This document shows positions 1 through 10,303 of a stretch of 10,303 nucleotides of DNA, one piece after another. Position 1 is the first letter of the stretch, and the number at the start of each line of letters is the position of its first letter. The notes beneath the pieces were generated by a model. It was not told where the DNA came from, did not search any database, and worked only from the letters and a program-made list of their open reading frames with translations. The stretch is taken from NCBI GenBank assembly GCA_937911965.1, contig CALDPL010000234.1, positions 1-10,303 on the forward strand, in the 5' to 3' direction. A program made the position numbers and the translations under genes. Origin of the DNA: an uncultured Allomuricauda sp. (lineage in GTDB: Bacteria; Bacteroidota; Bacteroidia; Flavobacteriales; Flavobacteriaceae).

Positions 1-2734
1 CACCCGCTTGATCGGCGGCAGCAAGTTCTCCTTCGGGGGACACGGTTATGCCGTCCTCAATGTGTATAGGGACGGTTCCTCCGATCTGGCCTTTTACGCA
101 GCCGGGCCGGGCGAGGGGGAACCCCTCTTTGCCACTGAGGTGCTGCCGGCGGACCGCTCCCTGGATATCGAGGGGTTGGCGGAGGATTTTCCGCCCTTTG
201 TGGAGGCTTCCATCTACACCGAGGCAGAAGTGGACAAAAGCTGGTTTCACAAATTGCTTTGGGGAGAGCGGTACCGGAAGTATTACGCCACCAAGGTCAA
301 GGCCCCCACCCTGCGTTTGGATACGCTCTACGGAGGGGTCAAGGTGGTGCGCAAGGGAGGGGGAAATCAGTCCCATACCCTGCGCCTGGAAGATTCCACG
401 GGAAGGCAGTACGCCATGAGGGCCATGAGAAAGAGTGCCGAACGCTACTTGCAGGCCATCGCCTTCCAGGACCAATATATCATCGGTCAGTTCGAGGATA
501 CCTATACGGAAGATCTGTTGCTGGACCTCTATACCGGGGCCCATCCCTATGCCCCCTTTACCATGCCAAAGCTCAGTGCGGCCGTAGGGCTTTACCATAC
601 CAACCCCAAACTGTACTATATCCCCAAACAGGCCACCCTGGGAGATTTCAACGCGGAGTTCGGAAATGAACTCTATATGTTGGAGGAACATGTGTCCGAG
701 GAGCACGAAGACCTTGAGAGCTTTGGAAAAGCCAAGAAGATCGAGAATACCTATGACCTGATCAACGAGTTGCGGGAGGACGAGGAGAACAGCTTGGACC
801 AAAAGCTCTATGCCAGGGCACGGCTCTTTGATATCATGGTGGGGGATTGGGACCGGCACGACGACCAATGGCGGTGGGCCCGATTTGAGGATGAGGACGG
901 CAACCGACTCTTCAAGCCCATTCCCAGGGATCGGGACCAGGTCTTTTCCCGATGGGGGGATGGGCTGATCATGGCCTTTGGGTCCAGGGCGGTGCCCGCC
1001 CTGAGAATCTTTGAGGGCTTTCACAAGGAAATACGGTCCGTAAAGGGTTTTACCTCCTCCCCAAGGACCTATGCCCTGGACATGGCATTGCTCTCAGAGA
1101 CCACCCTGGAGGATTGGATCGAGCAGGCCGAGTTCATCCAAGCCCGGATCGATGGTCCCTTGATCGACGACGCCTTTTTGGCCTTCCCCGAGGAGGTGCG
1201 GGACCACAGCCTGGAAGAGATCAAGGAAACCCTCTTGGCGAGGAAGGAAAATTTGGTGGAAACGGGAAAGGAGTATTTTAAGGTTCTGAACCGCTATGCG
1301 GTCATTACCGGGACCGACAAGGACGATCGGTACCGGGTGGTCTCCCACCCGGACGGCAGCGTGGAGATCGAGGCCCATCGCATCAAGCAAGGGAAACTGG
1401 CCGAGCAGATCTACCACAAGGTATTCGACCCCGATTACACCAAGGAAATCTGGTTGTACGGGCTGGACGATGACGATGAATTCGAGGTGGACGTTCCCGA
1501 TTCCAAGATCAGGTTGCGCATCATCGGGGGACAGAACAACGATGTCTATAAGATCTCAAAGGATTCAAGGAAAACCTCGATCTACGATTTCAAGGCCAAG
1601 AACAATACCTATGAGGGGGCCCTAGGGGGAAAGATCCATAAACTGGAGGACTACGACACCAATACCTATGAGTTCCTCAAAGTGAAGGCCAGCCGGAACC
1701 AACTTCTGCCCACAATCGGTTACAATCCGGACGACGGGCTTCGTTTGGGGCTTGGTGACACCTATACCTTCAACGGGTTTCGGAAGAATCCCTTTACGGC
1801 GCAGCACCGCTTCAACGCGGCCTATTTTTTTGCCACCCGGGGCTTCGACCTCTCCTACCAAGGGGAATTTGCCCATGTGATGGAAGGGGTGAACCTGGAA
1901 TTGGGCCTGAGGTTTACCAGCCCGAACTTTACCCAGAACTTCTTCGGCCTAGGAAACCAAACGATCAATGAAGATGATGGGCATCCCTTGGGGAAGGATT
2001 ACAACCGGGTGAGGATCAGGACTCTGAAATTTGCACCGGCCTTGGTCTGGAGGGGATTTTTGGGTTCCAAGGTCAAACTGGGGGCCTCCTATGAAAACTT
2101 GGAGGTGGAGCCTACCGAAGATCGCTTCATAGCGGAATTCTATGCCGACAACGATGGGGAACCCGATCAAAGTTTCCTTGGATTTGAAGGGGAGTACAGC
2201 TTCTCCAATACGGACAATGCCGCCTTTCCGACCCTGGGGATGGGATTCAGCCTCCTAGGGGGGTACAAGACCAATTTGGGAACGGGGGAGGGTTTTGCCT
2301 ACCTGATCCCCAGCCTGTCCGTGGACCATAGGATCGATCCCCAAGGGCGTTTGGTATTGGCCAGCAAGATTCAGGGACATTTTAACCTGGGGGACGGTTT
2401 TGAGTTCCACCAAGCGGCCTCTATCGGGGGCAATGAAAGCCTGAGGGGATTTCGGTTCCAACGCTTTAGTGGAAAGACCGCCTATTATCAGAGCACCGAT
2501 CTGAGGTACAGTTTCAGGAGGAGGACCACCGGACTCCTGCCCGTGACCCCTGGGATTTATGGAGGTTTTGATTACGGAAGGGTATGGCTGCCCGGGGAGG
2601 ATTCCGGGAAATGGCACAATTCCTTTGGCGGGGGGCTGCTGCTCAATGGGGCCGATCTGATCACCGCAAGTCTGGGACTGTTCAGCTCCTCGGACGGGGC
2701 CCGATTTTCCTTCGGGCTCGGTTTTGGCTTCTAA
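1..2734 (+). CDS. Phosphoesterase-tail / kinase-like / Omp85-type barrel fusion protein, 5' end missing
   Basis: The reading frame is open at the left edge (first full codon at position 2), so the start lies outside; the TTG at 8 is internal. Residues are counted from the codon at 8. Residues 1-35 resemble the closing strands of calcineurin-like phosphoesterases (FGGHGYAVLNVYRDGS); the catalytic part would lie upstream and cannot be seen. Residues ~85-400 look like an atypical kinase fold: a Gly-rich turn GGGNQ at 117-121, a basic strand YAMRAMRK at 135-142, GDWDRH at 279-284 and PIPRDRDQVF at 305-314. Residues ~566-908 form an outer-membrane beta-barrel with many alternating aromatic strands, the Omp85-type GGNESLRGF motif (RGF at 813-815) and a terminal Phe, typical of a BAM-recognised last strand. 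I infer an outer-membrane protein with a periplasmic or surface soluble head. The family is common in flavobacteria; its substrate is unknown. It ends in TAA and overlaps the convergent neighbour by 4 bases. Confidence 0.85.
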   Translation, partial: TRLIGGSKFSFGGHGYAVLNVYRDGSSDLAFYAAGPGEGEPLFATEVLPADRSLDIEGLAEDFPPFVEASIYTEAEVDKSWFHKLLWGERYRKYYATKVKAPTLRLDTLYGGVKVVRKGGGNQSHTLRLEDSTGRQYAMRAMRKSAERYLQAIAFQDQYIIGQFEDTYTEDLLLDLYTGAHPYAPFTMPKLSAAVGLYHTNPKLYYIPKQATLGDFNAEFGNELYMLEEHVSEEHEDLESFGKAKKIENTYDLINELREDEENSLDQKLYARARLFDIMVGDWDRHDDQWRWARFEDEDGNRLFKPIPRDRDQVFSRWGDGLIMAFGSRAVPALRIFEGFHKEIRSVKGFTSSPRTYALDMALLSETTLEDWIEQAEFIQARIDGPLIDDAFLAFPEEVRDHSLEEIKETLLARKENLVETGKEYFKVLNRYAVITGTDKDDRYRVVSHPDGSVEIEAHRIKQGKLAEQIYHKVFDPDYTKEIWLYGLDDDDEFEVDVPDSKIRLRIIGGQNNDVYKISKDSRKTSIYDFKAKNNTYEGALGGKIHKLEDYDTNTYEFLKVKASRNQLLPTIGYNPDDGLRLGLGDTYTFNGFRKNPFTAQHRFNAAYFFATRGFDLSYQGEFAHVMEGVNLELGLRFTSPNFTQNFFGLGNQTINEDDGHPLGKDYNRVRIRTLKFAPALVWRGFLGSKVKLGASYENLEVEPTEDRFIAEFYADNDGEPDQSFLGFEGEYSFSNTDNAAFPTLGMGFSLLGGYKTNLGTGEGFAYLIPSLSVDHRIDPQGRLVLASKIQGHFNLGDGFEFHQAASIGGNESLRGFRFQRFSGKTAYYQSTDLRYSFRRRTTGLLPVTPGIYGGFDYGRVWLPGEDSGKWHNSFGGGLLLNGADLITASLGLFSSSDGARFSFGLGFGF

Positions 2735-3588
2735 TCGATCTGGAAGCGGTAGAGTTTTCCACCCCCTTGCTTGTTCTGTTCGTCCGCGATCAAAAGGGTC
2801 CGTTCATCCACAAAGGATACCGATTCGGTCTGGGTCCGGCTTCTAAAGTTATAGGTCTGAATTTGGGCCCCTGAAAAATCCTGGAGTTCAAAATCCCGTA
2901 CGATGAACAACAGGCCATAGCCCAACAGGGCGATGGTGTTTCCCTCCGGGGAGATGTCGGCTGCCGTGACCGAACACTGGTCCTTGTCACCGCAGAGGTA
3001 GAGGCTTCCCAAAAAGCGGGCCGTATGATTTCCTTCACGGTCCGGTACGCTGTATATCAAGGTTTTTCCAGAATAGGGGCGGGTGCGGTTCTTGGTGAAG
3101 ATATAGAGTTGGTCCCCATGGTGGAAGAACCCTTCCGTATCGTAATATAGGCTGTCCTTTGCTGGGGGAAAGGCGGTTTGCTCTGGGTAGTGGAATTTGA
3201 TTTTTTCGGCCCTGGGTTCTTTTTTTTCCAGTTCACGTGCAGGGATCTTATAGATGACCAGATTGTCCCTTTCGTTGTCGTTGTTCCCGAAATCCCCAAT
3301 ATAGAGGTTGCCCAGGCCATCCTTGGTGAGTTCTTCCCAATCCCGGTTCTTGGCGTTGTCGATTTTCAGGCTTTTGATCGCCCGGGCCGTGGAATCCACC
3401 ATATGGATCTTATCCTCGTTCCCCGAATCCTCGATCACCCAATAGCTGCCCGGGGAGGCGGGGGCTATACCCGAAACCTCTTCCAAGTCGGGGGGGAAGC
3501 TGCCCAGGGGCTCCAAGGTTCGGTATTGCATCTTCTGGGCACAACCAAGGGCACAGACAAGCAGCGGGACTAGGACGATGTATTTCAT
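2731..3588 (-). CDS. Beta-propeller-like lipoprotein of unknown function
   Basis: A 285-residue protein. I chose the ATG at 3588 because it gives a compact lipoprotein signal, MKYIVLVPLLVCALGC, with lipobox ALGC and acylated Cys16; the in-frame ATG at 3633 would add a charged stretch before the signal. The mature part has repeated blade-like strands, with NRDWEEL at 81-87 and YIGDFGNN at 96-103. This DWE-L...YIGDFGNN pattern recurs in flavobacterial proteins built as propellers and often left hypothetical; some resemble esterase-like phytase or SdiA-regulated propellers. Several Asp/Asn-rich turns might hold calcium. I do not recognise a catalytic centre, so no enzymatic role is assigned. It is the last gene of the minus-strand run, 75 bases after the GyrI-like gene. 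Its stop (TAG, 2731-2733) interlocks with the stop of the convergent barrel gene. GC-rich like its neighbours. The lipoprotein call is firm; the fold is likely; the role is unknown. Confidence 0.85.
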   Translation of the reverse strand: MKYIVLVPLLVCALGCAQKMQYRTLEPLGSFPPDLEEVSGIAPASPGSYWVIEDSGNEDKIHMVDSTARAIKSLKIDNAKNRDWEELTKDGLGNLYIGDFGNNDNERDNLVIYKIPARELEKKEPRAEKIKFHYPEQTAFPPAKDSLYYDTEGFFHHGDQLYIFTKNRTRPYSGKTLIYSVPDREGNHTARFLGSLYLCGDKDQCSVTAADISPEGNTIALLGYGLLFIVRDFELQDFSGAQIQTYNFRSRTQTESVSFVDERTLLIADEQNKQGGGKLYRFQID

Positions 3589-3600
3589 GGGTCGAATGAA

Positions 3601-3627
3601 TTTTATAGGGAGCCGGCCCCTAAAAAT
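3601..3627. promoter_or_regulatory. Imperfect hairpin in the 75-base gap upstream of the propeller lipoprotein gene
   Basis: On the minus strand, UAGGGG pairs with UCCCUA (five Watson-Crick pairs and one G-U) around a CCGGC loop. It is flanked by U-rich sequence before and A-rich sequence after, which could lengthen the stem with one mismatch. No U tract follows the hairpin in either direction, so it does not look like an intrinsic terminator. It lies 13-39 bases before the start codon at 3588, where it could sit in a leader RNA. A TTTG and a TATTTTTA, weakly like the Bacteroidota -33/-7 elements, lie further upstream in the same gap, but their spacing of about 25 bases is too long for a confident promoter call. 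Confidence 0.25.
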
Positions 3628-3663
3628 AATCATTGTTCGTGGATTTATAGGCCCAAATCCCGT

Positions 3664-4566
3664 TCAATTGCTTTCCTTGATGGGCATAAAGATCTCAGTT
3701 TTCCAATCCAGGCCGTCCCCGCCCAGGTTGGGGTTGTTGAAGAAAATTTCCACGGGTTTCCGCTCGATGGGTATCCCGTGTTTTTCCGCATAGTCCACCA
3801 GGGCGTACCAGGCCCGGTCGGAACTGATGTAGTGTCCGTTGTAGATGGCCTTGATGCTCTTTTTGCCGAAAATGCGTTTGTAAATGATATCTGGATGTTT
3901 GGGCAAACTTTCGGAGCGGATGATGGGAAAACAAAAATTGTAGAGCATGGAATTGGCCTCCAGGTCCCATTCTTCCACTTCGATCATCGGCAGGCCGTTG
4001 AGGGTCACCCCATGGCCCACCAAATAGGAGTTGAGCAGGGAATAGTTGGCCATCATGCCCCGGGCCTTGTCCTCCGGGGCACTCCGTATGGGGACGCAGG
4101 CACAAAAAGTGGTAAAGAGTTCGTCTTCCCCCAAAATGGTCACCTCGAATTCGTCCAAATGGTCGTTCAAAAAGGCATTGAAATCCAAGAGTTTCTTTCG
4201 GGCACCCTTTTCGAAATCCGTATTTGAGAAAGGTACCCTGATCTTGTTCCACAGGCTGTGTTCGGGGTCCTTGATGTTGACCCTGACCTTGCTCAAGGAG
4301 TCATGGATCCGGGTGATCTTCCAATCGTAGATGTGCAGGGAATCGCCCATGAGCAGCTGCTGTTGAAAGCGGGTAGGGTCCCCGTATTGGAATGGCAGCA
4401 CGCTGTCAAAGGTCTTGTTCCAGGCCTTGGCGCTTTCATAGATGGTCCCGGGGTTGGCCCTGGCCTCGAAGCGGACCAGGTAATCCTGGGGCTTGAGGAA
4501 AAAGTACCACAACAATACGGCCAAAAGCAGGCCCGACACCATGAGCAGGGTCTTTCTCATACGCAT
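3664..4566 (-). CDS. Membrane-anchored protein with C-terminal GyrI-like (effector-binding) domain
   Basis: A 300-residue protein. Residues ~6-23 are one hydrophobic segment after a basic MRMRK start, so the protein is probably inner-membrane anchored with the rest in the periplasm; there is no Cys at a lipobox position. Residues ~28-140 resemble SRPBCC-type helix-grip sequences found in the same protein group (DYLVRFEARANPGTIYESAKAW). Residues ~145-297 match the GyrI-like / AraC effector-binding fold: KKSIKAIYNGHYISSDRAW, then a helix, then KPVEIFFNNP and WKTEIFMPI, with the acidic residue E291 at the place where these domains bind cationic or hydrophobic small molecules. No DNA-binding domain is present, so this is not a conventional regulator; a ligand-binding role is inferred. 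The start is either ATG 4566 or ATG 4560, two codons apart. It follows the haloperoxidase gene by 15 bases, consistent with one transcript. Confidence 0.8.
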   Translation of the reverse strand: MRMRKTLLMVSGLLLAVLLWYFFLKPQDYLVRFEARANPGTIYESAKAWNKTFDSVLPFQYGDPTRFQQQLLMGDSLHIYDWKITRIHDSLSKVRVNIKDPEHSLWNKIRVPFSNTDFEKGARKKLLDFNAFLNDHLDEFEVTILGEDELFTTFCACVPIRSAPEDKARGMMANYSLLNSYLVGHGVTLNGLPMIEVEEWDLEANSMLYNFCFPIIRSESLPKHPDIIYKRIFGKKSIKAIYNGHYISSDRAWYALVDYAEKHGIPIERKPVEIFFNNPNLGGDGLDWKTEIFMPIKESN

Positions 4567-4581
4567 TCCAAAGTTAAGGGA

Positions 4582-5913
4582 TTATTCCTTTGCCATCTTC
4601 AATTTGTCAACGATAAAGGCACCCAGGTCCCTGCCCTGATCAATGCCCACCTCAATGGCCGCTCGATAGTGTATTCCCCCGTACATCCTGCTGATGGCGG
4701 CCTCCTCGGCGGCTTGGTTGAAGGAGGTAAAGGAACGCATCGGAATTCCGAAGGGGGTCTCCGTATCGTCGTCATAGGCAAAATTGTCCCCGAACAGATC
4801 GGTCAGCACCGTGGCCGCAGCCCCGGATACCACGGAATGGCCGCTGGTATATTCAGGGAATGGGGGGGTCTGCAATACAGGTTCCCAGCTGTCGTCAATA
4901 TATTCATTGATCACGGTCTCGGGACGGATCAGGTTGCTCCTGAATTTTTCGTCCCAACAACTGATAAAGCCGTCAAAAAGGGCAATGGAAGTCTTGGTGT
5001 AGTTGTGTACGGTCCGGGCAAAGTCGGTATCGGTCATCCTACAGGCAATCTTGTTGATGCCGATCCAGTGGGCCCCCGGGGTGATCTTTTTGGTGGCGAA
5101 CATCAGGTGGCCCCGGGTCACGGAGACATAGGGGTTGCAGTCCCAAAACTTGGCTATGGCGATTTCCTCCGAGTCATCCCCTTTTTCGGTCATTTCCTGT
5201 CGGACCCGATAGACTTCCATGGTTTCCTTGTAGAATTGTGAATCTTCCTCCATGGAGAAAGGGGGTGGGGGAATGGGCTTGAACTGGGAGGCGGAATCGA
5301 TCGCAAAGGGCCTGATCTTGGCCCAATGGGGTTCCAGGCCGTTCATATAGGCCGGGGGGGTGGGCTGCCACCTGGCCGGGTCCTCCGTATCGACCGTGAA
5401 CTTGGGCATGGTACGGGTTTCCTTGTAATTGTCCCCGTTCATCCAAGTGGTGATAAAGTCGGCCACTTCCATGCCGTAGTCCTTGGAGGTGTTGAAGACT
5501 TTTTCATTACTCTCCCTCCAAGCGGTATAGAGGCTGTCCCGGTATCCCGTCACACGATCTTCCGAGAATATCAATCGTTTGCTCAATTCCATATGGGCCA
5601 CCATGGCGGCTACTTCATAGTTGGTGTTTTCCGGGTCCGAGGGATCTGGGATGGACTGCAAATCTTTCAATTGGCCCGCCAGGGATTGATAGGAATCCGG
5701 CTGCTTCTTTACCATGATCTCATAGGCGGCGATGGAGGGATAGGCAAAGATCCGTGTGGCCACCGGCGGGGAGAAGATGTCGTGTATCATCACCTCCACC
5801 ACCTTATCCACGGCCCGGTGGAAATCCTCCGGACTTACGACTATGGGCTGCTGCTTTTTTTGGCAGGCTGTCAGTATCAGAACTACAGCGATTGGAATGG
5901 TTTTTAGTTTCAT
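4582..5913 (-). CDS. Vanadium-dependent haloperoxidase / PAP2-family lipoprotein
   Basis: A 443-residue lipoprotein with signal MKLKTIPIAVVLILTAC (lipobox LTAC, Cys17). A second ATG at 5937 is possible; it adds eight residues and would overlap gene B by 14 bases instead of leaving a 10-base gap. All three blocks of the vanadate/phosphate pocket shared by vanadium haloperoxidases and type 2 phosphatidic acid phosphatases are present: K323-x6-R330-P (KFRSNLIRP), S357-G-H359 (EYTSGHSVVSG) and S408-R409-x5-H415 (SRMYGGIHYRAA). The pocket therefore looks intact, with H415 as the vanadate or phosphoryl ligand and H359 as the acid/base residue. The family oxidises halides with peroxide or hydrolyses phosphomonoesters, and the sequence does not decide which. 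It is envelope-located, with no multi-spanning membrane segments, unlike lipid-phosphate PAP2 enzymes. Its place directly after an FG-GAP/VCBS gene and before a GyrI-like gene suggests a shared transcript. Confidence 0.9.
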   Translation of the reverse strand: MKLKTIPIAVVLILTACQKKQQPIVVSPEDFHRAVDKVVEVMIHDIFSPPVATRIFAYPSIAAYEIMVKKQPDSYQSLAGQLKDLQSIPDPSDPENTNYEVAAMVAHMELSKRLIFSEDRVTGYRDSLYTAWRESNEKVFNTSKDYGMEVADFITTWMNGDNYKETRTMPKFTVDTEDPARWQPTPPAYMNGLEPHWAKIRPFAIDSASQFKPIPPPPFSMEEDSQFYKETMEVYRVRQEMTEKGDDSEEIAIAKFWDCNPYVSVTRGHLMFATKKITPGAHWIGINKIACRMTDTDFARTVHNYTKTSIALFDGFISCWDEKFRSNLIRPETVINEYIDDSWEPVLQTPPFPEYTSGHSVVSGAAATVLTDLFGDNFAYDDDTETPFGIPMRSFTSFNQAAEEAAISRMYGGIHYRAAIEVGIDQGRDLGAFIVDKLKMAKE

Positions 5914-5923
5914 CGATTTTCGA

Positions 5924-8900
5924 TTATTGGTTTTCATTGGTGTTCATCGATCCTTGGATTTGGTTTTGGACATTTTCCGGGATCCCATCATTTATAAAGG
6001 TATAGATCTGTGCCCTATCGTTGTTGAATACGGCCAGGAGATAGTTTTTGTTGCCGAATTCAAGGATCTTCAAATGCCTCAGCGACCTTTGGGTAAAGTC
6101 CAGGCCCAGGGAACTTCCAAGGGTGAATCCGCCCCCCTTTTCGATCAGGGCCCCCGGAAAGGAATCCAATCGACCGTGATAGGGCTTGACCCCGAAATAA
6201 TTACCGCCACAAAGTACCTCCTCTTGACCGTCCCCGTCAAAGTCCTCCACAAGAAAGGTCGTGATGGGGGCCACCTGAAGTTCGTTGAGGAATGGGACGA
6301 ACTCAAAGCTTCCGCCCTGGTTTCTAAGATATCCGGATTCCAGGGTGTTTACCTCGAGCAATTCGGCCGCTTCCAACATATCCCCTCCGAACACTTCCTC
6401 CATGGTCTGTCCGGCAAAGGATTTGTAGCTGGTGTATTTTTTCTTCAAAAAGACCAGTTGCTGGACAAGTCCGTCCAAGTTTTCCAAGGAGTAGTACTTT
6501 CCGTTCTTTTCCATGGCGGTGATCGTTTCGGTCTGTCCGTTGTTGTCAAAGTCATCGAAGTACAGCTTCATCGGATATTTCTTGGAGGCCTTGAACTTGG
6601 AGTTGGTCCCCCAATTTCCCAGAAGGTAGTCCAGATCCCCATCCCCGTCGATATCGAAGGCCGCTATGCTTTGCCAGAGGCCCTTTAGGTCCAGGTCGTG
6701 GACTTCCCTAAAGGAAGCCTTTTCATTTTTCAGGAACCTTGGGGACATCCATTCCCCGACCAGGATCAGATCGACTTGGCCATCGCCGTCAAAATCGCTC
6801 CAAAGGGCATCGGTGACCATTCCCTTGCCCAAAGCCTCAAATTGTTCCACGAGGACAAATTTTCCCCCTTGGTTCTCCAACAAATGGGATTGGGCGGGTG
6901 CCCCGAAACGCCCCGTGAGGGTATGTCCCCCCACAAACAGGTCCAGATCGCCGTCCCCATCGTAATCAAAGGGCCTCAGCACGGAGGAATTCTGGAAGGA
7001 CTCCGGCAGCGGCACCTTGGTGAAACCCGTATCGGTCCGTATGTAATAGGCATCGAGCAGGGCCTCGGATTCCCCGAAGAAATCCCCACCCCCCGAACTG
7101 ACGACCAGGTCGTTTCTTCGGTCCCCGTCAAAATCCGTGATGACGGCGGCGATGTTCTCCCTGATGGAATCCCCTTGGATGTCGGGAAAGTCCATGGGGA
7201 CAAAGGCAGTGTCCCTTTGCAGGTGGAACTGCGGGGGAATGAACTTGGAGCCCCCCAAGAACACATCCATCCTCCCGTCTCCGTCCAGATCGCCCAGGGC
7301 CAGGGCGGGGCCCCGGTCCGAGATTTGGTAAGGAATGAGTTTTTCCCGGTTGAAGTCCGTGTAATTATCCTCTACATGGACCAGGTTCAGGCCCAGGTTG
7401 CCCGGGAGTTTTTTAAAGGTCCGGGTCGGTTTGGGGTGCAAGCTGCCATAATCAAAGACCTTGACATTTTCCGGTTTTATCAGCAAATCTTGGTTCACTT
7501 CCACATCCTTGAGTACCTGGTAGGTCCCCTCCGGCCAAATGATCTTCAGGGAATCCACCCTTTGGGCGTCCCCGTATCCAAAATGCAGCATGGGCTCGGA
7601 GGAGGCCTGGAATCCCCTGCTGGGGAAGAGTTCCTTATACTGTAAGTTTCCCTGATGGTAGGAATACACTTTGGTCCCTATGCCAAAACGGTTCTTTTTG
7701 CGGTATTGGAACCGGAGTTTGAGGTATGCGGCCTTTTCATTGGTCTTGTTGATGTAGAGGGTGGCAGGCCGGTCAATATTGTTGGTCACCAGGTCCAGAT
7801 CTCCATCCCCGTCCAAATCCCCCAGTGCCATGGCCCCGGATATCAGGCTGTCCCTTTGGATCCAGTCCCCCGATCGGTTGTGGAAGGTCAGGTCCTCCCC
7901 ACCCTTGAAGATGTAATTGTGCACCTTTCCGGAGGGCATGAGCTCCAGGGCCTCTTGATCGACCAATTTGGTGTTGTCCAGTTTTTTTTGGATTTCCTCA
8001 TTGGAGGCAAATTTAATGAAGTCCAGATCGTTGGGCCTTTTGGGGATTCCATTGGAGATGAACACATCCTGCAGGCCATCCTGGTCGTAGTCCCCAAAAA
8101 GGGCGCTCCAGCTCCAATCGGTGGCGGCAACGCCCGATAATAATGCTATCTCACTGAAATGGCCATTGCCCAAATTAAGTTGAAGCGTATTTCGGGCAAA
8201 TTGGTGGTTGTATCCGAAACTAAGCTTAAAATAATAGATGTCGTAAGCATCTTCACTTGCCGAGGTTTTGAGCATTTGTTGGTTTTCGGGGAGCATATCG
8301 AGCGAAAGAATATCCGGCAAACCATCATTGTTGAAGTCTCCAACGTCATTTCCCATTGAAAACCTGCTGGTGTGTTGTATTGAAGCGTCCAGTGCTTCTG
8401 TGAACGTTCCGTCACCGTTGTTGATGTACAGGTAGTCATTTTCGTGAAAGTCATTTCCGACGTAGATATCGGGATAACCGTCCCAGTTGATATCGCCTAC
8501 TGTAATGCCGAGTCCATAACCGAGGGCGCTGCTATAAATGCCTGATTCTTTAGTAACGTCTACAAAATGGCCTCCCTCGTTTCGCATCAGTTTGTCTCCT
8601 GCCAAAGGATGAAATTCGGTGCGAAGATCAGATTTGCCATAAGTGCCATTTGAGTGTACTGAATGGTTCAGCATGTACATATCCAGGTCGCCGTCCAGGT
8701 CATAATCAAAAAAAGCGGCCTGGGTTGAAAATCCTTTCAGGTCTAAACCCCAGGCTTTGGCCTGGTCTTCAAATACAGGAACTCCATTTTCATCATTTCC
8801 GAGGTTGATATAGAGCTGATTCCTTCCTATTATATTTTTATAGTCGCCAAGTTGGCTTACGTATATATCTAACCTGCCATCACCGTTTACATCTGCCATC

Positions 8901-9241
8901 GTTACGCCGGTAGTCCAACCCTTTTTTCCAAAAACTCCGGCTTTCTCGGTAATATCAGTGAACTTGAAATCGCCATTATTCAGATAAAGCTTATTGGAAT
9001 CAAGATTTGATGTAAAATAAAGGTCTGCTAATCCGTCACCATTTACATCTCCAGCGGCTACCCCACCCCCGTTGTAGAAATAGAGGTAATTAAAAACATT
9101 CAGTTGGGGAGTTTCCCTTAATTCGTTTTGAAACGTGATCCCGGTTTGCGATGAAGGCAGCAAATCAAATCTTTTTTTCTCTTCACATGCGACCGCCGTT
9201 GTCAGTAGGATTGCTATAATTAAGTATCGAAATTTATTCAT
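5924..9241 (-). CDS. FG-GAP/VCBS-repeat lipoprotein with ASPIC/UnbV domain (CRTAC1-like), compositional mosaic
   Basis: A complete 1105-residue protein. The ATG at 9241 is chosen because it opens a signal peptide, MNKFRYLIIAILLTTAVAC, with acylated Cys19; the upstream ATG at 9313 lies inside gene A and adds a basic, Pro-rich stretch. At least 14 DxDxDG-type calcium loops mark FG-GAP/VCBS propeller blades, at about residues 65, 117, 179, 250, 302, 384, 475, 651, 703, 759, 816, 863, 897 and 1000. The ASPIC/UnbV domain lies at ~518-587 (from RFGIGTKV to QDLLI). The family is abundant in Bacteroidota, usually surface lipoproteins near SusC/SusD-type transport genes, with adhesion or scaffolding roles proposed; no catalytic residues are known. 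The start overlaps the end of gene A by 8 bases (ATGAATAA), suggesting translational coupling. Oddity: codons 1 to ~370 are AT-rich and codons ~371-1105 GC-rich, with the switch near 8110-8145 and the frame intact. Confidence 0.92.
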   Translation of the reverse strand: MNKFRYLIIAILLTTAVACEEKKRFDLLPSSQTGITFQNELRETPQLNVFNYLYFYNGGGVAAGDVNGDGLADLYFTSNLDSNKLYLNNGDFKFTDITEKAGVFGKKGWTTGVTMADVNGDGRLDIYVSQLGDYKNIIGRNQLYINLGNDENGVPVFEDQAKAWGLDLKGFSTQAAFFDYDLDGDLDMYMLNHSVHSNGTYGKSDLRTEFHPLAGDKLMRNEGGHFVDVTKESGIYSSALGYGLGITVGDINWDGYPDIYVGNDFHENDYLYINNGDGTFTEALDASIQHTSRFSMGNDVGDFNNDGLPDILSLDMLPENQQMLKTSASEDAYDIYYFKLSFGYNHQFARNTLQLNLGNGHFSEIALLSGVAATDWSWSALFGDYDQDGLQDVFISNGIPKRPNDLDFIKFASNEEIQKKLDNTKLVDQEALELMPSGKVHNYIFKGGEDLTFHNRSGDWIQRDSLISGAMALGDLDGDGDLDLVTNNIDRPATLYINKTNEKAAYLKLRFQYRKKNRFGIGTKVYSYHQGNLQYKELFPSRGFQASSEPMLHFGYGDAQRVDSLKIIWPEGTYQVLKDVEVNQDLLIKPENVKVFDYGSLHPKPTRTFKKLPGNLGLNLVHVEDNYTDFNREKLIPYQISDRGPALALGDLDGDGRMDVFLGGSKFIPPQFHLQRDTAFVPMDFPDIQGDSIRENIAAVITDFDGDRRNDLVVSSGGGDFFGESEALLDAYYIRTDTGFTKVPLPESFQNSSVLRPFDYDGDGDLDLFVGGHTLTGRFGAPAQSHLLENQGGKFVLVEQFEALGKGMVTDALWSDFDGDGQVDLILVGEWMSPRFLKNEKASFREVHDLDLKGLWQSIAAFDIDGDGDLDYLLGNWGTNSKFKASKKYPMKLYFDDFDNNGQTETITAMEKNGKYYSLENLDGLVQQLVFLKKKYTSYKSFAGQTMEEVFGGDMLEAAELLEVNTLESGYLRNQGGSFEFVPFLNELQVAPITTFLVEDFDGDGQEEVLCGGNYFGVKPYHGRLDSFPGALIEKGGGFTLGSSLGLDFTQRSLRHLKILEFGNKNYLLAVFNNDRAQIYTFINDGIPENVQNQIQGSMNTNENQ
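8110..8145. other. Composition breakpoint inside the FG-GAP/VCBS gene (probable recombination or assembly junction)
   Basis: Reading in the gene's direction, codons change abruptly from A/T-ending (ATA GCA TTA TTA TCG, residues 365-369) to G/C-ending (GCC GCC ACC GAT TGG AGC, residues 372-377). Hand counts of single 60-base lines give 37/60 GC at 7801-7860 and 33/60 at 6601-6660, against 21/60 at 8221-8280, 28/60 at 8281-8340, 30/60 at 8881-8940, 24/60 at 9361-9420 and 22/60 at 9721-9780. The junction coincides with the ATDWSW block, one of the most conserved parts of this family, where two homologues would share the longest near-identical DNA. There are no direct repeats, integrase genes or tRNA here, so homologous exchange or mis-assembly fits better than a mobile element. 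Confidence 0.65.
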
Positions 9242-10303
9242 GTTTCGAAAGTTTGTCTCTGGTATAGGTAATCTTAAGGGTGGCTTTCGGAGCGGAATTA
9301 TCCGAAGATTCACTCAAGACCTCAGGCTGCTTATTTGAAAAGCCATAAAATTCCAGTTGCTCATTATTCCTGGCGACAATTAACAATCGCCGATTGTTTG
9401 TTGTATTGAGAATTGCTGCCTTTCTCACGTCTCCCTTGATATTCAGGCCCGTCTTCCGGAAGTCCTCCACACTAAACGCACCTCTTTCAAATTTTAAGAG
9501 CTCACCATGATTTGCATCATACCTACCTTCTTCGGGTTTTATGCCTGAGAAATTGCCTGCCATAAATACTTCAGCAATGCTGTCCTGATCAAAAGCAGCG
9601 GGGAGAATGGTATTGATAGGAGAGAATTGCATTGCTTCCGGCAGCGGCTGCATTGAAAACGACCCGTCGCCATTGTTAAAAATAGCCGTTGATTCTAATG
9701 TGTAAACTTCGTTCTTGTAGGAATTGGCTAATTGATCCTCTGTAAAAATTTGATCAACTGTTTTGCCGGCGTAATCTTTGTAAAAAATGAATTGTTTTTT
9801 GAGGCCGGGAATTTGCCTGATCAAATCATCTTTCAAAGCTACAGGATATAAATTCTCCCCTTCATAATAGGCAAATATATGATCCAGAAGGCCATTTTTG
9901 TCAAAATCATTGATAAAGAGGGTAAGCGGTTTTTCTTTGGATGTTTTGAACCTGCTGTTTGTTCCCCAGTTTCCGGCAATTAAATCCAATGTTCCATCAT
10001 TGTTAAGATCGGTAGCGACAACACTGTTCCACCACCCTTCCGATTTTTCTAAGCCGGGCACGTTATTTAGTCGCTCGAGGTTGGTTCCGTTATTCTTAAA
10101 TAACACGATCGACATCCATTCTCCCACTACGGCAAGGTCCAGGTCGCCGTCAGCATCGTAGTCCAGCCACACTGCATCTGTAACCATCCCTAAGGTGCCC
10201 AATTGTGGAGCCACCCTGGAAGTAACATCGGTAAATTGGCCCTGGCCATTGTTTTGCAACAGATGGCTGGGAGCATTCATACCATAGTTACCAGGTACTC
10301 CTC
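9234..10303 (-). CDS. FG-GAP/VCBS-repeat protein, paralogue of the downstream gene, 5' end beyond the window
   Basis: Only the last ~355 codons are visible. The frame stays open to the right edge and reads GVPGNYG before the internal ATG at 10280, so that ATG is not the start. Calcium-type loops DYDADGDLD, DLNNDGTLD and DFDKNGLLD mark FG-GAP/VCBS blades. The visible part aligns with the C-terminal third of gene B: GMVTDAVWLDYDADG against GMVTDALWSDFDGDG, VVGEWMS against LVGEWMS, and GNWGTNSRFKTS against GNWGTNSKFKAS. It is therefore probably the same kind of ~1100-residue surface lipoprotein with an ASPIC/UnbV domain, but its signal and that domain lie outside the window. All visible codons are AT-rich, like the first third of gene B and unlike everything left of ~8130. 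Its TAA stop sits inside the first codons of gene B, an 8-base overlap typical of coupled translation. Confidence 0.88.
   Translation of the reverse strand, partial: GVPGNYGMNAPSHLLQNNGQGQFTDVTSRVAPQLGTLGMVTDAVWLDYDADGDLDLAVVGEWMSIVLFKNNGTNLERLNNVPGLEKSEGWWNSVVATDLNNDGTLDLIAGNWGTNSRFKTSKEKPLTLFINDFDKNGLLDHIFAYYEGENLYPVALKDDLIRQIPGLKKQFIFYKDYAGKTVDQIFTEDQLANSYKNEVYTLESTAIFNNGDGSFSMQPLPEAMQFSPINTILPAAFDQDSIAEVFMAGNFSGIKPEEGRYDANHGELLKFERGAFSVEDFRKTGLNIKGDVRKAAILNTTNNRRLLIVARNNEQLEFYGFSNKQPEVLSESSDNSAPKATLKITYTRDKLSKHE

Follow-up and report, generated by a model that had tools for sequence, protein, structure and literature searches.

The DNA considered here raises the question of whether a single gene that changes its codon composition partway, without losing its frame, comes from one bacterium or from two, and, if from two, whether its parts were ever joined in a living cell. 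The window, by which we mean the whole stretch of 10,303 nucleotides analyzed, carries the gene on its minus strand.

5924..9241, minus strand: FG-GAP/VCBS and ASPIC/UnbV gene, apparently chimeric, 1105 amino acids (open reading frame and translation; Pfam FG-GAP_3, FG-GAP, and UnbV_ASPIC)
8131..9241, minus strand: 5' part of the gene, Cytophagales-type (GC3 of 0.43; 366 of 368 residues identical to P0002; N tree, SH-aLRT of 99 with P0002)
8104..8130, minus strand: zone of 27 bases most likely holding the join (codons at the junction, from 4 N-type and 21 C-type genes)
5924..8103, minus strand: 3' part of the gene, Flagellimonas/Allomuricauda-type (GC3 of 0.69; best match P0121, 76%; C tree, SH-aLRT of 100)

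The product is an FG-GAP and ASPIC/UnbV protein, as FG-GAP repeats and the ASPIC/UnbV domain are both present above the Pfam cut-offs (FG-GAP_3, 228 bits, cut-off 26.9; UnbV_ASPIC, 80 bits, cut-off 23.4). Its N-terminus looks like a lipoprotein signal, and Cys19 is invariant in an alignment of 66 sequences. In the same alignment the residues A-T-D-W-S-W (373-378) are also invariant, though they lie ahead of the calcium loop at 384.

Base composition along the gene

A first-pass annotation had described an in-frame compositional breakpoint within this one FG-GAP/VCBS gene and had called for GC3 to be followed along it. The profile is indeed an abrupt step. A one-breakpoint model, applied to the longer GTG-started reading frame of 1129 codons, places the switch at 8137 (8113-8173 within 2 log units), with a GC3 of 0.426 before it and 0.688 after it and with the frame intact. 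The gain in log-likelihood is 36.3; 300 permutations reached 8.6 at most. Across the switch GC1 (0.51 to 0.56) and GC2 (0.34 to 0.34) stay nearly level.

Low GC3 as the usual state at the start of these genes was considered and ruled out by 154 homologous reading frames, partly nonindependent as some loci overlap, in which the stretches on the two sides of the motif differ in GC3 by 0.010 ± 0.037. These controls are at least 900 amino acids long, have a DWSW or DWTW motif, and come from 108 loci (161 were found, and 7 without DW[ST]W were dropped). The window gene, with a difference of -0.254 (z = -7.1), is the lowest of the 155. The nearest control, L074_4097 (-0.174), is itself likely an exchange.

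The GC3 step also runs contig-wide, beyond the gene, which the annotation did not mention. To the right of the join, all of the visible sequence is AT-rich, with a GC3 of 0.449 in the partial gene upstream (9234-10301), and everything to the left is GC-rich, with values of 0.712 (2-2734), 0.658 (2731-3633), 0.741 (3664-4566), and 0.690 (4582-5937) for the genes beyond the join. Because the whole visible contig switches together with the gene, two bacteria stitched by a metagenome assembler are more likely than a natural protein swap. No return breakpoint was found within the 10.3-kb window, of which only 2.2 kb lie past the join.

Relatives of the two parts

For residues 1-368, the closest of the 120 matches listed is P0002 (99%), followed by proteins at 81-85% and then, among those that bear a name, mostly by Cytophagales sequences (such as Cyclobacteriaceae and Catalinimonas). 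The window protein departs from P0002 only at residues 163 and 326 and agrees with it up to S379. P0002 represents the N-side type in intact form and past S379 continues with a Cytophagales-type second part; from residue 380 on, the window protein follows the Flagellimonas type. For residues 369-1105, the best of the 120 matches listed are P0121 (76%) and Flagellimonas/Muricauda proteins, and nothing among them is above 76% protein identity. The 119 other N-part matches and the 119 other C-part matches listed have no member in common. The listed N-side set is 34-41% identical to the window in the C part, and the listed C-side set is 50-56% identical to it in the N part; between the parental types, protein identity is about 53% in the N part and 38% in the C part. 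The Cytophagales-side and Flagellimonas-side groups belong to different orders. Among 166 sequences compared, the swap of nearest relatives is largest in the window gene (0.83), and the next largest without the window involved, L074_4097 (0.51), lies inside one genome.

Separate trees of the two parts, also proposed by the annotation, were made for 36 proteins with a quick method and SH-aLRT support only. The window stands beside P0002 in the N-part tree (SH-aLRT of 99), which contains long branches, and beside P0121 in the C-part tree (SH-aLRT of 100), in a set of five with Flagellimonas-genus sequences. A common placement is rejected. With groups that were named after the quick trees had been seen, placement of the window in the opposite group gave p-AU values of 5.6e-5 (N) and 1.3e-55 (C), and with single partners 3.3e-4 (N) and 5.3e-5 (C). 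None of the 35 other proteins switched between the three subfamilies from one tree to the other; the long-branched L029_9935 has no placement in the C tree, and there are smaller rearrangements inside subfamilies (e.g., L086). The comparisons show that two diverged Bacteroidota are joined in the window gene, which was the common ground of the two explanations offered by the annotation, recombination or a chimera of two organisms. The parts are, by their tree positions, from different paralogue subfamilies of tandem arrays as well as from different organisms, and are not derived from orthologues.

The wider C-type group of ten in the C tree includes two Cytophagales sequences, L042 and L057, so that membership of the subfamily is by itself no proof of the order. 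The proof lies in the nesting with Flagellimonas and in the gene block described below. L042 and L057 hold all three tree subfamilies, which suggests that these are old or were transferred together.

All 71 Flagellimonas-genus genomes match, with a best listed DNA identity of 71% for the FG-GAP gene and 76% for the neighboring PAP2 gene. In the family of G003 (Cyclobacteriaceae locus L025), 319 of 390 genomes match, with a best value of 72%; the 390 are a sample of a larger group, with one or two candidates scored per genome. A near-identical parent was not found among these 71 genomes or the 390 of G003's family (including 3 of one genus). The named-genome loci represent 80 of 581 relatives, and a closer genome may lie outside them. 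Since these comparisons yielded no close parent for the C side, there is no sample in which both parents have been observed.

Position of the join

The annotation placed the switch at the conserved ATDWSW motif, and the codon comparison agrees: the join lies in AATDWSWS. Leftwards from 8130 the DNA is identical to that of the Flagellimonas-genus locus L089 through the motif, so the crossover is most likely within 8104-8130; the zone reaches 8134 if the left-side parent has Val, not Ile, before AATDWSWS. Among 108 loci, only L089 has the exact 27-mer of the zone. The eight residues AATDWSWS are common to P0002 and to all 8 C-type proteins compared, and shared runs of at least 7 residues cover 6-9% of P0002. 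From codon constraints, the DNA of the parents would be identical at the join over at most about 27-31 bases. Such a position points to homology-dependent joining, with which an assembler k-mer bridge, template switching, and recombination fit alike.

We also considered whether the junction motif is the longest stretch common to the parental types. It ranks only about fifth to seventh. Among 84 stand-in parent pairs (4 N-type by 21 C-type), a shared run of at least 20 bases starting at residues 370-379 occurs in none, and the longest shared DNA run starts there in 9; longer runs occur elsewhere.

The same join was not found again in a junction-centered search (residues 336-412; best 120 of 2692 matches) or among the 347 other proteins retrieved in match lists of at most 120 each, none of which has both sides of the junction. 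At the junction, P0002 matches 37 of 37 residues on the left and 19 of 33 on the right. Among the 347 proteins, the best right-side matches have 32/33 on the right and 15-17/37 on the left, and the best compromise after the window itself is P0256 (26/37 left, 23/33 right). In the best 120 of the 2692 matches, P0240 (62% identity) and P0241 (76%) scored at least as high as the window's own sequence, but fell outside the best set once both sides were scored separately; we take their high scores to be due, putatively, to repeated motifs.

Gene neighborhood on each side

The genes around the join were compared with those at related loci.

9234..10303, minus strand: 3' end of an upstream tandem FG-GAP gene that runs off the window, Cytophagales side (GC3 of 0.449; neighbor identity)
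4582..5937, minus strand: PAP2-superfamily gene, Flagellimonas side (Pfam PAP2; 78-79% to Flagellimonas/Allomuricauda L015 and L030, same position)
3664..4566, minus strand: GyrI-like domain gene, Flagellimonas side (Pfam GyrI-like, barely over the cut-off; 66% to L015 and L030, same position)
2731..3633, minus strand: unnamed gene, Flagellimonas side (no Pfam match; 62-63% to L015 and L030, same position)
2..2734, plus strand: outer-membrane beta-barrel type gene whose start lies outside the window, Flagellimonas side (Pfam ShlB; 72-73% to L015 and L030, same position and orientation)

At L025 (Cyclobacteriaceae), the gene that immediately precedes the matching gene is 53% identical to the truncated upstream gene; the value is 59% (168 amino acids) for Cesiribacter L028 and 34-42% for the Flavobacteriaceae loci listed. 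On the other side, by our count, the order and orientation PAP2, GyrI-like, unnamed, and barrel gene beside a C-type gene recur in 22 of 80 loci, all titled Flavobacteriaceae; many of the loci without this order are truncated contigs or belong to other groups. The neighbors on each side thus track a different organism up to the join, the Cytophagales side being represented by one truncated gene.

Positions 2-5937 form a conserved Flavobacteriaceae block beside the FG-GAP/ASPIC gene, in which the barrel gene runs counter to the others. Arrays of two or three such paralogues in tandem are recurrent in Flavobacteriaceae and in some Cytophagales (L001-L013, L042, L057). RNA families and tRNAs were sought as landmarks in the window, and none was found.

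Predicted structure across the join

The structure predicted for the chimeric protein from the 66-sequence alignment has a pLDDT of 82.5 and a pTM of 0.79. A CRTAC1-like beta-propeller fold is predicted: murine CRTAC1 (9etn) was the single PDB sequence match at an E value of 0.001 and the best Foldseek match (TM of 0.73 by target length, 0.38 by query length). Model and sequence together give five calcium-loop-like repeats ahead of the join (near residues 65, 117, 179, 250, and 302) and two past it (384 and 475), followed by the ASPIC/UnbV domain (520-586) and a second propeller-like part. We read the first propeller as having seven putative blades, split 5 + 2 by the join, which in the model lies at a link between blades, past helix 366-369 and just ahead of strand 377-383. 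The join would therefore split one propeller without swapping a whole domain. A good model does not imply that the chimeric protein exists, because both parental types should share the fold.

The annotation added that a natural event would mean a modular exchange of N-terminal blades, a possible way to change binding specificity. This found no support: the parts belong to different paralogue subfamilies, and the join would splice about five blades of one propeller to two of another.

Tract exchange in Pollutibacter soli

One natural contrast came from the tandem FG-GAP/ASPIC paralogues of Pollutibacter soli strain JS81 (L074), which stand out as 1 of 76 within-locus paralogue pairs.

about 1513-3433 and 5489-7409 of L074: two copies of a shared tract, near-identical DNA in a diverged background

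Over about 1.9 kb the two genes are 98-100% identical in DNA (one 40-codon block, 88%), compared to 42-72% outside the tract. GC3 is 0.56-0.57 in both copies, versus 0.30-0.42 outside and 0.36-0.48 in neighboring reading frames. Such a pattern suggests gene conversion between the two paralogues, perhaps GC-biased or involving a foreign tract. The one case suggests that real exchange in the family is bounded at both ends and takes place inside one genome. By title, no open-licence literature was found on exchange in this family.

Origin of the join

We consider it probable, at about 0.86, that the contig is chimeric, with two genomes joined in a short conserved stretch by the assembler or by a template switch in the library. 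Positions 1 to about 8130 would come from an unsequenced Flagellimonas/Allomuricauda relative (Flavobacteriaceae) and positions from about 8131 to 10303 from a Cytophagales (Cyclobacteriaceae-like) bacterium. Both lineages carry FG-GAP/ASPIC genes in tandem, whose DNA would be alike at the conserved DWSW motif; inside that stretch the assembler, or else template switching during library preparation, may have crossed between the genomes. Homology of the two genes, with their codons in register at this point, would keep the frame open across the join. According to PMC8171044, a stretch common to two species can become a chimeric node of a de Bruijn graph, and assemblers of this type may link the wrong entry and exit at such nodes. 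The chimera is favored because each flank retains the gene order of its own organism as far as the join, the N-parent type exists in an intact and near-identical version, and no second example of the join turned up among the proteins compared. We infer that the joining took place in a computer or a library rather than in a cell.

Of the two explanations in the annotation, the chimera is thus the better supported and recombination between diverged Bacteroidota the less so. Real inter-order recombination seems unlikely to us. In that case Cytophagales DNA would have entered a Flagellimonas-like bacterium, or vice versa, and replaced the start of the FG-GAP gene together with the end, or more, of the preceding gene; a crossover at DWSW would have given a hybrid first propeller. 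We hold it equally doubtful that a living bacterium carries such an in-frame FG-GAP/ASPIC recombinant, with about five Cytophagales and two Flavobacteriaceae blades and a crossover in the interblade motif. The frame is open and the domain order is kept across the join, an interblade link could be tolerated according to the model, tandem arrays in both lineages mean that the flanks would align, and tract exchange seems to occur in this family within one genome. However, each side of the window belongs wholly to one organism, with no return in the 2.2 kb past the join, and parental types only about 53% (N) and 38% (C) identical offer little substrate for homologous recombination. The join also lacks a second example among the 347 proteins and the best 120 junction matches, and the swap next in size to that of the window is a single-genome event. 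One mechanism known to make such joins in cells, homology-facilitated illegitimate recombination, operates at a low rate, given as 3e-10 per recipient in E. coli conjugation (PMC3240628).

Less probable still is a chimeric molecule made in the laboratory, by template switching during whole-genome amplification or PCR or by library ligation, and then assembled. A join in a short shared stretch fits this equally well, and nothing in the sequence separates it from assembler error, but at ordinary coverage reads from correct molecules should outnumber those from a rare chimeric one. That the gene belongs to one genome and shifts in composition through selection or expression has a negligible chance of being correct. 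Beyond the shift itself nothing speaks for it; the parts differ in nearest relatives and gene neighborhoods, the trees speak against it, and no shift of this size occurs in the 154 homologous reading frames.

If the chimeric contig is an artifact, it is a warning that unrelated genomes can be bridged in frame by the conserved motifs of large, tandemly repeated protein families, yielding a full-length and plausible gene that may never have existed. Entries of that kind would mislead surveys of domain shuffling and horizontal transfer. If the join is natural, it would represent part-propeller exchange between orders.

Comparison with known systems

Both parental types are ordinary members of the CRTAC1-like FG-GAP/VCBS and ASPIC/UnbV propeller proteins of Bacteroidota, with FG-GAP repeats, an ASPIC/UnbV domain, and tandem arrays. 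Unlike these, the window sequence joins the start of one subfamily to the rest of another. Compared to CRTAC1, the window protein is about twice as large and has a second propeller-like part. The apparent gene conversion in L074 resembles the window in that part of an FG-GAP/ASPIC gene was apparently replaced in frame, but it concerns one genome of a named strain and a bounded tract of about 1.9 kb, with its left edge about 66 codons after DWSW. The interspecies chimeric contigs of metagenome assembly described in PMC8171044 are also comparable. Whereas our diagnosis is indirect, drawn from sequence rather than from reads or the graph, the window shares with them two species joined at a short conserved stretch, with composition and relatives that differ on each side.
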